A stretch of 64,000 nt of DNA, taken from NCBI RefSeq assembly GCF_024297145.1, contig NZ_JANCTC010000006.1, forward strand, positions 1 through 64,000, given 5' to 3'. The notes beneath the pieces are model-generated. The model was not told the DNA's origin. It ran no database searches and worked only from the letters and a program-made list of their open reading frames with translations. A program made the translations under genes and the position numbers. Positions 39,712-46,302 of this stretch are shown piece after piece (within the stretch, counting starts at the first letter, position 1; every line of letters begins with the position of its first letter). Origin of the DNA: Mesorhizobium sp. LMG 17147. Lineage in GTDB: Bacteria > Pseudomonadota > Alphaproteobacteria > Rhizobiales > Rhizobiaceae.

Positions 39712-40994
39712 ACGAGGCGGCGGCAGCAAGACCATCGGGCGCCGGACCCTTTTCCGGCTTCGAGCGCATGGTGGCGTGGCGCTATCTGCGCTCTCGTCGC
39801 AAGGAGACGGTGATTTCGGTCATCGCCTCGATCTCCTTCCTCGGCATCATGCTGGGGGTCGCCACGCTGATCGTCGTCATGGCGGTGATGAACGGCTTTC
39901 GCGCCGAACTGCTGACGCGCATCCTAGGCGTCAACGGGCACCTGATCGTGCAGCCGCTCGACATGCCGCTGGAGGACTATGCCCAGGTCGCCGGCCGCAT
40001 CAACGGCGTGCCCGGCGTTAAATACGCCATCCCGCTGATCGACGGGCAGGTGCTGGCGCAAGGCAATGTCGGCGGCGGCACCGGCGCGCTGGTGCGCGGC
40101 ATACGCGGCGAGGATCTCGGCAAGATCACCATCGTCGCCAACAATATCAAGGAGGGCTCGATCGTCGGCTTCGGCACCGGCGAAGGCGTCGCCATCGGCA
40201 GCCGCATGGCCGAGAATCTCGGCCTAGTGCTTGGCGATACGATCACGCTGATTTCGCCCGAGGGCGACATCACGCCGCTTGGCACGACGCCGCGCATGAA
40301 AGGCTATCCGGTCACCGCGATCTTCGAGGTCGGCATGTCGGAATATGACAGCTCGATCGTCTACATGCCGTTCTCGGAAGCGCAGCTTTATTTCAACATG
40401 GACGGCCGGGCGCAGACGATCGAGATCTATGCCGACAATCCCGACAATATCGACGCGCTGAAGCCGAAGGTCGAAGGGGCGGCGCAGCGGCCGATCAGCC
40501 TTGTCGATTGGCGGCAACGCAACAAGACGTTCTTCGACGCGCTGCAGGTCGAACGCAACGTCATGTTCATGATCCTGACCCTGATCGTGCTGGTGGCGGC
40601 GCTCAACATCATTTCGGGCCTGATCATGCTGGTGAAGGACAAGGGCCACGACATCGCCATCCTGCGCACCATGGGCGCGACGCGCAGCGCGATCCTGCGC
40701 ATCTTCCTGATGACCGGGGCTGCGATCGGCGTTGTCGGCACCATCGCCGGCGTGCTGCTCGGCATCGTGATCTGCCTCAACGTCGAGCGCATCCGCCAGT
40801 TCTTCTCCTGGCTGGCCAACGAGCGGCTGTTCAATCCCGAGCTTTATTTCCTGAGCCAATTGCCGGCCCGCATGGATGCCGGCGAGACGATCTCCGTCGT
40901 TCTCATGGCGCTGGCGCTGTCGTTCCTGGCCACGCTGTTTCCGGCGTGGCGCGCGGCCAGGCTCGATCCGGTCGAAGCGCTGAGGTACGAGTGA
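39708..40994 (+). CDS. lolC: Lipoprotein-releasing ABC transporter permease (LolC/LolE family)
   Basis: Inner-membrane permease of the LolCDE machine that extracts outer-membrane lipoproteins. The 428 aa show [20 protein letters not shown] followed by a first helix ([21 protein letters not shown]), a large periplasmic MacB-like domain, then three C-terminal helices including the [20 protein letters not shown] loop. Only one permease gene is present, so it probably forms a homodimer (sometimes called LolF). Start at 39708 overlaps proS; the stop overlaps lolD. Confidence 0.92.
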
Positions 40995-41674
40995 TGGCCG
41001 AGGCCATTATCGAGCTGAAGAGCGTCGAACGGCACTATGTGCAGGGACCGCGCAAGCTGACCATCCTGAACGGCGCCGATTTTTCGCTGAAGCGTGGCGA
41101 GATGGTGGCGCTTGTGGCGCCGTCGGGCACCGGCAAGTCGACGCTGCTACACACCGCCGGGCTGCTGGAGCGGCCAGACGCCGGCGACGTGATCCTGGCG
41201 GGGCGCGCCTGCGGCCGGCTTTCCGACGACGAGCGCACGGCGATCCGCCGCAACGACGTCGGCTTCGTCTATCAGTTCCATCATCTGCTGCCTGAATTCT
41301 CGGCGCTGGAAAACATCATGATGCCGCAGCTGATAAAAGGGCTGCCGCGCAAGGAGGCGGCCGAGCGGGCGGCGCAATTGCTCGACTATATGCAGATCGG
41401 CAAGCGGGCACAGCATCGCCCCTCCGAGCTCTCCGGCGGTGAGCAGCAGCGGGTCGCCATTGCGCGTGCCGTCGCCAATGCGCCGCTGGTGCTTTTGGCC
41501 GACGAGCCGACCGGCAATCTCGACCCGGTGACCGCTTCCTATGTGTTCGAGGCGCTGGCAGCACTGGTCCGGCAATCGGGCCTGGCGGCGCTCATCGCCA
41601 CTCATAATCATGAGCTCGCTTCGCGCATGGACCGCCGCGTGACTCTGGCCGACGGCAAGGTTGTGCCGCTTTAG
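40994..41674 (+). CDS. lolD: Lipoprotein-releasing ABC transporter ATP-binding protein
   Basis: ATPase of the Lol complex, 226 aa. Walker [10 protein letters not shown] (near residue 44), Q-loop [17 protein letters not shown], the signature [14 protein letters not shown], Walker [12 protein letters not shown] and the switch His in ATHNHE are all intact. The ATG at 40994 overlaps the permease stop. No terminator is obvious after it. Confidence 0.95.
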
Positions 41675-41837
41675 GGTGCGCTGCAATTGAGGCGATGACG
41701 GCCTGCGAGCTGCCGTGCGCCGTCCCGCCGCTTTCGCGCGCCTGTTGGCCCGAAACGCTTGGCATCTCCCTCTCAACCCTTTCTTAACCCTGTCGAAATG
41801 ACCGAGCGCGATTCCGGTGACGCCGGGACTGCGATCG

Positions 41838-41866
41838 TTGACATTCGAACAAAATTAGAACAAAAT
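41838..41866 (+). promoter_or_regulatory. Predicted SOS-controlled promoter
   Basis: TTGACA at 41838-41843, then a 17-nt spacer and CAAAAT at 41861-41866. The spacer and -10 region are occupied by LexA half-sites, so repressor binding would block RNA polymerase. Confidence 0.55.
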
Positions 41867-41872
41867 ACGAAC
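41847..41872 (+). promoter_or_regulatory. LexA operator (three GAAC half-sites)
   Basis: GAAC-N7-GAAC-N7-GAAC at 41847-41850, 41858-41861 and 41869-41872. The complement reads GTTC-N7-GTTC, the alphaproteobacterial LexA box, here as two overlapping operators, 22 bp upstream of the 28-codon ORF. Confidence 0.75.
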
Positions 41873-41894
41873 ATACTAACAACAGGAGAGAGTT

Positions 41895-41981
41895 ATGACC
41901 GATCTTGTTCAGGATGTCGTTTCGCTGGTGTGCATGAGCACGTTCCTCATTTCCATGGCAATCTGGATCGGCGCGATGTGA
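41895..41981 (+). CDS. 28-aa membrane peptide, SidA-like candidate
   Basis: A short ORF: MTDLVQDVVSLV, then CMSTFLISMAIWIGAM. After an acidic N terminus the rest is one hydrophobic helix, so a single-pass inner-membrane peptide is expected. A strong AGGAGAGAG ribosome-binding site ends a few bases before the ATG, and a triple LexA half-site overlaps the presumed promoter. Caulobacter SidA, a 29-aa SOS-induced inner-membrane peptide that inhibits division through FtsW, is the obvious analogue in size, topology and control; sequence homology has not been tested. It follows lolD on the same strand with its own promoter. Confidence 0.65.
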   Translation: MTDLVQDVVSLVCMSTFLISMAIWIGAM

Positions 41982-42060
41982 GGCTTGAGCTCAAGGGCGG
42001 GCTCGATGCTGATGAGCGAGGGCCGCCTTCGCATATTGGCGCAGGCATTGGGCGAGTGTT

Positions 42061-42804
42061 TCAGCCGGCCTTGCGGGACACTTCGACAGGCGATACCGCG
42101 GCGGGCCCGAACACGTCCTCGAAAGCGGATTTCAGCGCCAGGTCGAGGTCGGCCATGGTCACGGGAAGGCCGAGGTCGACAAGGCTGGTGACGCCGTGAT
42201 CCTGGACGCCGCACGGCACGATGCCGCTGAAATGGCTAAGGTCCGGCTCGACATTGATGGCGATGCCGTGAAAGCTCACCCAGCGCCTCAGCCTTATGCC
42301 GATGGCGGCGATCTTGTCCTCGGCCGCCGAGCCGTCGGGCAAAGCGGGGCGGTCCGGCCGCACCACCCAGACGCCGACGCGGTCCTCGCGGCGTTCGCCG
42401 CGTACGTTGAAGGCGGCCAGCGAGCCGATGATCCATTGTTCGAGTGCGGAGACGAAGGCGCGGACATCCTCGCGCCGCCGCTTCAGGTCGAGCATGACGT
42501 AGGCGACCCGCTGGCCCGGCCCATGATAGGTGTATTCGCCGCCACGCCCGGCGGCAAAGACCGGGAAGCGGTCCGGCTCGATCAGGTCCTCGACGCGGGC
42601 GCTGGTGCCGGCGGTGTAGAGCGGCGGGTGCTCGACCAGCCAGACCATCTCGCCGGCGGCGCCGCTGCGGATTGCCTCGGCGCGCGCCTCCATCAGGGCG
42701 AGCGCATCGGGATAGGCGGTGAGCCCAGGCTCGATCCGCCATTCGACCGGCGCCGAGCCGGGCAAGGGCAGGAACGACGTGGCGATCTGGCTGCGTTCTG
42801 TCAT
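42061..42804 (-). CDS. lipB: Lipoyl(octanoyl) transferase
   Basis: Transfers octanoyl groups from acyl carrier protein to lipoate-dependent enzymes. The 247 aa contain [27 protein letters not shown], the conserved Lys in [15 protein letters not shown] and the catalytic Cys in [13 protein letters not shown] chose the ATG at 42804 (MTERSQIAT); an in-frame ATG at 42822 would add six residues. The gene is convergent with the small SOS ORF. Confidence 0.94.
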
Positions 42805-42979: not shown

Positions 42980-43064
42980 GCGGTCGTGGCGGAATTGGTA
43001 GACGCGCAGCGTTGAGGTCGCTGTGGGGCAACCCGTGGAAGTTCGAGTCTTCTCGACCGCACCA
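42980..43064 (+). tRNA. tRNA-Leu (anticodon GAG)
   Basis: Acceptor arms GCGGTCG and CGACCGC pair. The anticodon stem CAGCG/CGCTG encloses loop TTGAGGT (anticodon GAG at 43014-43016). A long variable arm is present, as expected for Leu, and CCA is encoded at 43062-43064. Its 3' end is the attachment site of the island that follows. Confidence 0.95.
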
Positions 43065-44385: not shown

Positions 44386-46302
44386 CTAGAATGGAACATG
44401 CCGCTTCGAGCCGAAGGCATTGATCCAAACGTCCAGCTTTTGGAGTACGATACGATAGGTCCGCTCGTCTCGGCAGAAGACCAAGGCTGTCGCGCGACTG
44501 TAATCGTCGTCTCTGTCGTTTAGGAACGCTTTGGCCTCGTCTTCTCTCAACCGTAGTGCAACCGTCTTTCGCAATTTCTCCCGCCAGAACGTCGCTTCGA
44601 CTGAGCGATCGTGCTCAGCCTGTTTCCGGCGCTCAATCGCAGACAGGATTTCCCGTGCCTTCCCCGCGCTGTGATAGCCATGGTAAGCGGCCTCCAGAGG
44701 CGTGCGACCGTCAAGATTGGGATGCGGAGTATTCAGCCACGCGTCGAGTTCGGAGCCGCCTAGTACCGTCGCGGCGTTGCCGGCGAGTTCCTTTTGCCGA
44801 TCGATCTTGATCTTCTCAGCCTGCCCCGCAGCTTCGGCCTTGCGCTGTAGCTCCTTAGCGGCAATCGCAGCTAGACGGCGCTCGCATTCCTTTGCAATCG
44901 GGAGACCGAGGAGGTCAAGCACGTCGGTGCGCGTGCCATTGAACAGACCGACGATGGCCCGCAATTCCGCTTCAATAGGCTGCATCGTTTGCGTGTGTTC
45001 TAGCAGGCTGGCGTAGGTATCGACGTTCTCCGGATTGATCGAGTCCATCCAATCGTCAACGGTCATGCCTTTGCGTTCGTCGTCCGGTAGCTGGTCAAGA
45101 ATCCGTTCGATTGTTTCTAATATGTGCTCGCGGGCGGCAACCCTGCCGATTTCTTCGTCGACCCAATTGAACCACTGTGAAGCCACCCGTTGCGCAATTG
45201 CAAAACCACGCGCCGTCTCGACGACGACGCCAACTCGGGCCAGGTATTTGAGGTAAGACTCCACCGCCCTCCAAGGAGCCGCGAAGCGATTGTCCAGCGC
45301 TATGGAAGCTGTTTCAAGCTCGTTGCTGATCCATTTAAACTCAGGACGTATAAGGCCTTTACCTCCAAGGTGTTTTGATACGGCCACGGCGTTCGCCAGC
45401 TTATTACGAAATTCTTGGCCATAGAGAACGTCTGAGAGAATGACTGACTGCCAATATGCCGGCCCCGTTGTAAAGCAGGCGAATCCGGCGACCGGGATGC
45501 CAATGTGCTTGTCTAGGCCAATGCCGCGAAGAACATCTATTGCCGGCATCGGCGGGGATTTCGGTGCTGAGTCCAGAGCCGTGGCGTAGGCGCGGGCCTT
45601 CTGTTTGGCATCGGTGGTCAGTTTGCTCTCGGCCGCGACACGGGCGGCGGTAGCCGCCTTCTGCAACTCGACAACAGCGTCGTCGATGGCCTTGTTGAAC
45701 AACCATTTCCGGGGAGCCGAGCGGATCACGGCGTTCGCGACTACCTCCGGAGTGGCATCCCTCGGCAGGCGGGAGAGGTCAATTTCGATCGCCGGTATCC
45801 CATGCTCGCGGATGCGCCGAATCTTCTCGTCGTCGCAGGGATGCGTCACAGCGATCTCAACGAAGAGCTTCCGGCCTTGGATAGTGACATAGAGGTCAGG
45901 GACTATCTGTTGCGGGTCACGGAATTCGAGGCTTGCCGACCCCAGCGCTATTTCTTCGCGACCCGGGAGGACCCGTTCAACATCCCCGTGAGTGGCAATC
46001 CGCTTTGGCACGAACAAGGTGAGACGTTCCTTGACGATCTGCTTGGCGAGTTTATGTAGGGCGGTTTCCGGCCCTCCGCCGCACGCGTCCCGATGATGAT
46101 GTGCGAAGTGAGGGGTCTTTGCCATGGTCCTAGCGACCAAGCGGCTCCCGCACATGCCAGGACAGACGCAAGCGCATTTGAGTCCGCGTTCGGCCGTCGA
46201 GATATGGACTAAGCTGCCATCGGCCTTCTGCCCATAGACAAGCTCGGCACGATCAGTGCCGAACTCAGAGCGTACCTCGGCATGGTCTTGACGATTTCCC
46301 AT
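44386..46302 (-). CDS. CoiA-like PD-(D/E)XK nuclease-fold protein with antitoxin-type C-terminal motif
   Basis: A 638-aa island protein. Residues 35-80 resemble the N-terminal Cys/His region of CoiA-like proteins (CACVCPGMCGSRL and HFAHHHRDAC). ETALHKLAKQIV and then VPDLYVTIQGRKLFVEIAVT give the E...D...ExA pattern of a PD-(D/E)XK nuclease core (about residues 80-185). The middle is helical and unassigned. Near residue 535, WLNTPHPNLDGRTPLEAA resembles the toxin-binding domain of MbcA/ParS/Xre antitoxins (DUF2384). It lies 27 bp after the membrane protein gene and is probably co-transcribed. Activity and role are unknown; mobile-element location suggests defence or DNA processing. Confidence 0.7.
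   Translation of the reverse strand: MGNRQDHAEVRSEFGTDRAELVYGQKADGSLVHISTAERGLKCACVCPGMCGSRLVARTMAKTPHFAHHHRDACGGGPETALHKLAKQIVKERLTLFVPKRIATHGDVERVLPGREEIALGSASLEFRDPQQIVPDLYVTIQGRKLFVEIAVTHPCDDEKIRRIREHGIPAIEIDLSRLPRDATPEVVANAVIRSAPRKWLFNKAIDDAVVELQKAATAARVAAESKLTTDAKQKARAYATALDSAPKSPPMPAIDVLRGIGLDKHIGIPVAGFACFTTGPAYWQSVILSDVLYGQEFRNKLANAVAVSKHLGGKGLIRPEFKWISNELETASIALDNRFAAPWRAVESYLKYLARVGVVVETARGFAIAQRVASQWFNWVDEEIGRVAAREHILETIERILDQLPDDERKGMTVDDWMDSINPENVDTYASLLEHTQTMQPIEAELRAIVGLFNGTRTDVLDLLGLPIAKECERRLAAIAAKELQRKAEAAGQAEKIKIDRQKELAGNAATVLGGSELDAWLNTPHPNLDGRTPLEAAYHGYHSAGKAREILSAIERRKQAEHDRSVEATFWREKLRKTVALRLREDEAKAFLNDRDDDYSRATALVFCRDERTYRIVLQKLDVWINAFGSKRHVPF

Follow-up and report, generated by a model that had tools for sequence, protein, structure and literature searches.

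The question raised by this locus is what a 28-codon reading frame with LexA-type boxes in its promoter does in a rhizobial genome. The stretch of DNA analysed here (the window) comprises 64,000 nucleotides of Mesorhizobium sp. LMG 17147. The first-pass annotation had described a GAAC-N7-GAAC-N7-GAAC array overlapping a promoter, together with a ribosome-binding site and a 28-codon hydrophobic reading frame, and had argued by analogy that the peptide is a rhizobial counterpart of SidA, the SOS division inhibitor of Caulobacter. The arrangement itself was confirmed in the letters and in a promoter scan, and the features of the locus are the following.

40994..41674, plus strand: lolD (lipoprotein-release ABC transporter ATPase), the conserved upstream neighbour; TIGR02211 match, with homologs upstream in relatives
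41838..41866, plus strand: sigma-70-type promoter TTGACA-17-CAAAAT, from a consensus scan
41847..41872, plus strand: two overlapping LexA-type operators, GAAC-N7-GAAC-N7-GAAC, with GAAC at 41847-41850, 41858-41861 and 41869-41872
41884..41888, plus strand: ribosome-binding site AGGAG, read from the letters
41895..41981, plus strand: sidA-like gene, 28 codons, ATG at 41895, stop ending at 41981; one hydrophobic helix
42061..42822, minus strand: downstream neighbour, presumably lipB (octanoyltransferase); Pfam LplA-B_cat match

The 28-aa translation of the reading frame is MTDLVQDVVSLVCMSTFLISMAIWIGAM, and its hydrophobic centre, judged by hydropathy, would form about one transmembrane helix, which is the size and helix content of SidA. 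Searches of Pfam (up to E=1), NCBIfam and PHROGs with this peptide returned no match, nor did a search of phages; the best match among solved structures was no lower than E=0.65, and a search of plasmids with a stretch of the window gave no match. For 21 kb of the window, PLSDB plasmids gave matches to records of Mesorhizobium, Sinorhizobium, Nitratireductor, Azospirillum and others, none of those listed covering more than 10% of the query, and the proS of the source genome is closest among these plasmids to Shinella and Sinorhizobium. The peptide of one relative had a PHROG match at E=0.32. Of the two neighbours, lolD is matched by TIGR02211 at 41006-41662 below the model cut-off, as are all matches of that search, and the 42061..42822 gene is matched by LplA-B_cat at 5.1e-37. 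The dnaE1 gene of the source genome lies on another contig (C13), away from the peptide.

The consensus scan of 41650-42150 found a single sigma-70-like match, TTGACA (41838)-17-CAAAAT, which agrees with the consensus in 10 of 12 letters (0.1 expected); a TTGAC at the equivalent place and GGAG-like ribosome-binding sites before the peptide were seen in many relatives. Because this promoter spans 41838-41866, the GAAC boxes overlap its spacer and its -10 element. The bare GTTC-N7-GTTC pattern was dropped as evidence, since its frequency is that of chance both in the window (2 against 1.75 expected) and in the 5.98 Mb genome (164 against 159 for the reversed pattern), so that the evidence for the box rests on its conservation. 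The triple form was found once in the window with 0.01 expected. A stricter box, GAACANANNNNGAACANA, which was written after inspection of these promoters, has 8 matches in the genome and 0 for the reversed control; two of the 8 are in the peptide promoter, one is before lexA and one is divergent to a reading frame that by eye resembles DNA polymerase IV. Another match, GAACAAAAAAGGAACATA at L330:1501-1518, is divergent to a 449-aa reading frame that looks coiled-coil-like by eye and is a candidate SOS gene of the source genome, and one at L329:1501-1518 is divergent to a 400-aa reading frame, TIR-like by eye, which is a possible SOS-linked defence gene.

The first-pass annotation had proposed a search of relatives for the peptide, and this search found the reading frame to be conserved. 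It is present in all 37 same-genus genomes, the source genome included (E<=6.6e-11); among the 24 other genomes of that search two reached E<=10, neither of them below E=0.9. With the single sequence as query, 160 of 297 family genomes were matched at E<=1, and at E<=0.01 a profile built from 65 relatives' peptides matched 255 of the 297, which represent 96 of the 109 genera. The profile missed 42 family genomes, and 8 of the 20 misses listed are small genomes (1.1-2.6 Mb). Fifteen weaker matches are absent from the profile, some of them already weakly seen in the single-sequence search and with three identical pairs among them; dnaE1 lies downstream of 14 of them, where the box is perfect in 10 and retains 7 of its 8 letters in 4, and the fifteenth is an unlinked second copy with neither neighbour nor box. 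A comparison of 27 distinct coding sequences of the genus gave a dN/dS of about 0.09. Per position, the sequences differ by 0.10 within the reading frame, by 0.41 over the 84 nt before it and by 0.65 after it, the flank values being inflated by small insertions as the differences were taken without alignment. Phe17 is invariant and Asp7 nearly invariant across the 65 profile rows. This purifying selection at the level of residues argues for a working peptide.

A perfect box lies within 90 nt upstream of the peptide in 124 of 129 family loci; of 3935 control tiles cut from these loci, 9 have one. The loci were chosen by the peptide and 30 of them share one genus, so the 124 are not independent events. 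The median distance from box to start codon is 32 nt, and 41 of the 124 loci have at least two GAAC-N7-GAAC boxes. The five loci without a perfect box retain 7 of 8 letters (L043, L105 and L124), 6 (L095) or 5 (L117). This count excludes L131-L135, which are box-less second matches elsewhere in the genome, and L092, which is too short. The LexA operator expected in a sidA promoter thus has its putative equivalent here in boxes of LexA type.

Gene order was compared in 130 family loci, of which 30 came from the same-genus search, 25 from the family search and 75 were hand-picked by going down the family search list, often one per genus. The upstream neighbour is lolD (within ~1.5 kb) in 92 of them, antisense lipB follows within 1.5 kb in 51, as in the window, and dnaE1 follows on the same strand in 25, 16 of which have lolD on the other side; 12 loci have none of the three nearby. 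The ancestral order is likely to have been lolD-peptide-dnaE1. In S. meliloti Ak57 (CP090106.1) proS, a lolC-like gene, lolD and dnaE are annotated in a row, and the 469 bp gap between lolD and dnaE, for which an incomplete gene table lists no gene, contains a triple GAAC-N7-GAAC-N7-GAAC, an AGGAG and the 28-aa MADFVRDLAAFASMSLFIVSISVIALGL. The title of CP090106.1 names plasmid pSymB of S. meliloti Ak57, but at 3.72 Mb, and with proS, lolD and dnaE on it, the record may be a misnamed chromosome. In Shinella sp. PSBB067 the order is lolD, one box, the 28-aa MTDFLRDLAAFTSVAMFVASFSVILFGI and dnaE1. In such deeper relatives the peptide is thus found in the place of SidA, after lolD and next to dnaE1, and in the window lolD is directly upstream of it.

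For the comparison with Caulobacter, we baited named contigs and looked for dnaE in the four genomes reached in this way, of which two are isolates and two were assembled from metagenomes, and we take CC1926 and CCNA_02003 to be the same gene. All four named Caulobacter genomes have a reading frame of exactly 29 codons about 110 nt before the dnaE1 frame, near-identical in sequence across them and preceded by the box GAACATCTTGTGAAC and further half-sites. In Caulobacter sp. 602-1 the end of LolD is directly upstream of it; the other three have an antisense frame beginning MRLIIDTDTAGDDVF or similar, which is nucleoside hydrolase-like by eye. In the passages of the literature that we drew on, SidA, an SOS protein of 29 aa, resides in the inner membrane and binds and acts on FtsW (PMC4211646), sidA is CCNA_02004 (PMC10769358), the Caulobacter dnaE is CC1926 (PMC1839093) and CCNA_02005 is a nucleoside hydrolase (PMC3667746). 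From its length and neighbours we infer that the Caulobacter reading frame is the published SidA.

An ungapped matrix made only from rhizobial sequences (76 peptides, being the 65 profile rows and 11 of the weaker matches) was used to score 30,292 different 28-mers, each anchored at a start, which were taken from the window and from loci L136 onwards, excluding profile-fetched loci and copies of the peptide promoter. The window's own peptide ranked first and the Caulobacter reading frames ranked 2, 3 and 5; an earlier run that included profile-fetched loci had L177 and L189 above SidA. The score of SidA was reached by 53 of 100,000 of its shuffles, and the Caulobacter reading frames, at 11.1-15.4, score above all of 420 hydrophobic small ORFs (highest 7.8), part of the match being shared hydrophobicity. 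The sequence similarity is therefore apparent in the matrix ranks despite low pairwise identity to the Caulobacter reading frame, which is 5/28 for the window peptide, 6/28 for S. meliloti and at best 8/28 in the compared set. Aligned without gaps, the window peptide and the Caulobacter frame have Met1, Leu11, Val12, Phe17 and Met21 in common, and an acidic residue (D/E) at position 7. Their N-termini are charged differently, with Asp3, Gln6 and Asp7 in the window peptide and Arg3, Arg6 and Glu7 in Caulobacter. The two may therefore not have the same topology or contacts, and this charge difference is the chief ground for treating the contact surface with caution. Position 6 is R or K in S. 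meliloti, Shinella and other members, as in SidA. The counterpart of SidA that the first-pass annotation had argued for by analogy now draws support from the lolD-peptide-dnaE1 order and from an ungapped match above background, both of them features of sequence.

The same gap was surveyed across the alphaproteobacteria in a sample anchored on lolD, which comprised 110 loci (30 + 80), 102 of them kept; the eight left out were the duplicates L305-L308, the second copies L252, L301 and L302 and the truncated L283, while G361 was kept as L280. In 63 of the 102 dnaE1 is just downstream of lolD, and the other 39 are unlinked within the fetched stretch and uninformative on linkage. A perfect box is found in the gap in 16 of the 63 and is absent from 47, of which 32 have gaps shorter than 200 bp; L302, dropped from the count, is one more linked locus without a box. 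In 14 of the 16 boxed gaps a short hydrophobic reading frame of 31-47 aa follows the box (that of L226 was read by eye), and these are listed here.

Boxed small reading frames between lolD and dnaE1 in other families: L217, L219, L223, L226, L248, L251, L262, L280, L281, L284, L285, L287, L297 and L298

These reading frames are candidates for unannotated SOS division inhibitors of other families. Thirteen of them were scored against the 420 hydrophobic small ORFs, L298 being excluded as near-identical to L297. Eight exceed every null value, and the remaining ones stand at 0.2% (L248), about 4% (L217, L219 and L223) and 7% (L262) of the null; the Mann-Whitney p of about 1e-9 is overstated because some of the boxed reading frames are near relatives. 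Since boxes and reading frames occur in part of the linked loci, the gene looks old but patchy. According to the first-pass annotation, loss of the reading frame in relatives that keep the box would have spoken against it. No such case was seen, the loci having been picked by the peptide; cases of this kind were searched for solely in the lolD-dnaE1 gaps of other families, where two of the 16 boxed gaps (L221 and L234) have no such reading frame. A class-wide search with the profile matched 143 of 385 genomes at E<=1, none of them, the source genome aside, better than E=0.006; these matches were taken as mostly noise, though one or two of them (L177 and L179) may be real. The match of L177, which is outside the family, is MNDLARDCLGIVVVSAFLGSLSLCLMLA, and it lies above SidA on the rhizobial matrix. 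PopZ (PF10691) was dropped as a marker of Caulobacter since it was found in 156 of 190 genomes, and the assignment of family f31 to Caulobacteraceae was dropped because its PopZ match was weak.

Some genomes of the family have a second, unlinked and box-less SidA-like frame (L131-L135 and L350). Box-less peptides some 32 aa long, MRDLLHDIASFVAVSTFIATFAVWAGYLAEKV and close variants, were seen in phage-like DNA at L132:1508-1603, at L133:323-421 (in peptide orientation) and in L351-L356. The copy in L132 is near a PDDEXK protein (PF12684, DUF3799) and the one in L133 is near a protein that looks similar by eye. The core TFIATFAVW occurs in six IMG/VR viral contigs (L351-L356), each time in a SidA-like reading frame; no box was found in the 110 nt before the start in four of the six, and in L355 and L356 the start codon is ambiguous, so that the upstream check says little. 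A search of phages with the phage-type peptide gave no match. That phages carry a division inhibitor is a reasonable guess from these frames. Elsewhere in the window, a tRNA-Leu(gag) at 42980-43064 is followed by a stretch of odd reading frames that could be an integrated island. One reading frame of 638 aa (44386-46302, minus strand) has a single Pfam match at E<=0.01, to the Xre/MbcA/ParS C-terminal domain (E=1e-05), and its N-terminus is CoiA-like by eye.

We consider it very probable that the 28-aa reading frame is a LexA-repressed ortholog of SidA; on DNA damage it would probably stop the synthesis of septal wall by acting at FtsW/FtsN. Homology to the Caulobacter reading frame and the presence of LexA-type operators are supported at the level of sequence; LexA binding, induction, membrane insertion, the FtsW target and division arrest are what we infer, with LexA repression, damage induction and a block of late division following from the homology to Caulobacter. 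In an undamaged cell the gene would be kept off by LexA bound to the overlapping GAAC-N7-GAAC operators within the promoter. DNA damage would lead to RecA filaments and self-cleavage of LexA, the promoter would open, and the good ribosome-binding site would allow quick synthesis of the peptide. The peptide would then enter the inner membrane as a single helix and most likely bind the septal wall machine (FtsW, perhaps FtsN/FtsI), holding it inactive until repair is done. SidA itself has been modelled against TM7 of FtsW, on another face than YneA, in models that are not of high confidence (PMC13396833, as far as the excerpted text goes). On a larger scale, we lean towards a history in which SidA is an old alphaproteobacterial SOS checkpoint located between lolD and dnaE1, placing damage control of division beside the gene for the replicative polymerase. 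Many lineages would have lost or relocated it, most rhizobia would have retained it, and rhizobial phages would have taken it up as a box-less copy that could arrest host division on the schedule of the phage.

Three other readings of the peptide have to be weighed. A SidA-homologous SOS membrane peptide could have changed its target, for example to another envelope or replication protein, and the low identity, the opposite N-terminal charge and the long divergence would agree with this; we regard it as unlikely, given that Phe17, an acidic residue 7 and Leu11-Val12 are common to the window peptide and the Caulobacter reading frame and that the two have operators of one type. A LexA-controlled type I toxin-like peptide similar to DinQ or TisB, damage-induced and acting on the membrane with no divisome target, would also agree with the size, the single hydrophobic helix and the SOS-type control; DinQ is described as a toxic peptide of E. 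coli that has a single TM and is regulated by SOS (PMC3567139, in the part consulted). Such a toxin accounts poorly for an invariant Phe17 and a nearly invariant Asp7, and for homology in both sequence and position to the SidA-like reading frame, and we hold it to be quite improbable. A search of 41600-42200 against Rfam gave no match, although an antisense RNA of a family not listed there may exist.

The last of these readings is that the frame is a leader ORF tuning expression of the downstream dnaE1. The gene order in part favours it, as dnaE1 is downstream of the peptide in 25 of the 130 family loci, in 14 of the 15 further loci and in S. meliloti, and sORF25 of S. meliloti is located in the dnaE1 5'-UTR (PMC10117765, excerpted text), where the same source allows a regulatory role for sORFs in 5'-UTRs, sORF25 before dnaE1 included. 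Yet peptide and operators are kept where antisense lipB follows, in the window and in 51 of the 130 loci; dnaE1 is on another contig in the source genome, so the two are not found on one transcript there; and the selection on residues speaks for a working peptide. A leader has, in our estimate, a very slight chance of being correct, and we retain the SidA ortholog as the preferred reading.

This reading would provide a named, testable SOS division inhibitor gene for most sampled genomes of the family including S. meliloti, in which what was listed as a 5'-UTR ORF may become a checkpoint gene; the gene, with 28 residues, is shorter than many gene lists admit. The naturally occurring SidA sequences, dozens of them and diverse, would help to identify which residues contact FtsW, and the gene may bear on the enlargement of symbionts in nodules. 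Among the matches listed from the open-licence full-text literature, judged by title and the start of the abstract, we found no report of SidA in rhizobia or outside Caulobacter, nor any SOS division inhibitor named for rhizobia. The parts of three sources that we used describe SulA as not widely conserved and speak of SidA solely in Caulobacter (PMC4211646, PMC13396833, PMC9578287), one of them, a review, naming it for C. crescentus (PMC9578287).

Among the known systems, the SulA family of soluble FtsZ-binding proteins was ruled out by the length of 28 aa and the lack of any Pfam match up to E=1. DidA of Caulobacter is likewise a small membrane inhibitor of the FtsW/I/N complex, but it has 71 aa and is independent of SOS, being controlled by DriD (PMC4211646, partial text); the 28 aa and the LexA-type boxes of the window peptide exclude this identity. 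YneA of Bacillus, SosA of Staphylococcus and ChiZ of Mycobacterium resemble the proposed function in that they are induced by damage, sit in the membrane and inhibit division at a late step, and models of less than high confidence put them on FtsW; unlike the window peptide they are larger and have a LysM domain (YneA and ChiZ) or an extended helix (SosA), to go by the excerpted text (PMC13396833). The translated sORF25 of S. meliloti lies in the 5'-UTR of dnaE1, as does the S. meliloti member of the family, and, compared by position alone, is probably the 28-aa reading frame found there; the main text of that paper makes no link to SOS, the terms LexA and SOS being absent from it (PMC10117765). 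SEP6/sORF6 (<30 aa, with a TM helix and conserved in Hyphomicrobiales) is a candidate alternative to sORF25. The closest known system is SidA of Caulobacter crescentus (CCNA_02004). It differs from the window peptide in its positive instead of negative N-terminus and in a sequence of low identity, and the lineage of the window differs in having two overlapping perfect boxes and lipB in the place of dnaE1 downstream. The two are alike in length (29 and 28 aa), in the single hydrophobic helix, in the putative LexA-type operators, in a gene next to dnaE1 and near lolD, and in a sequence that can be matched without gaps.
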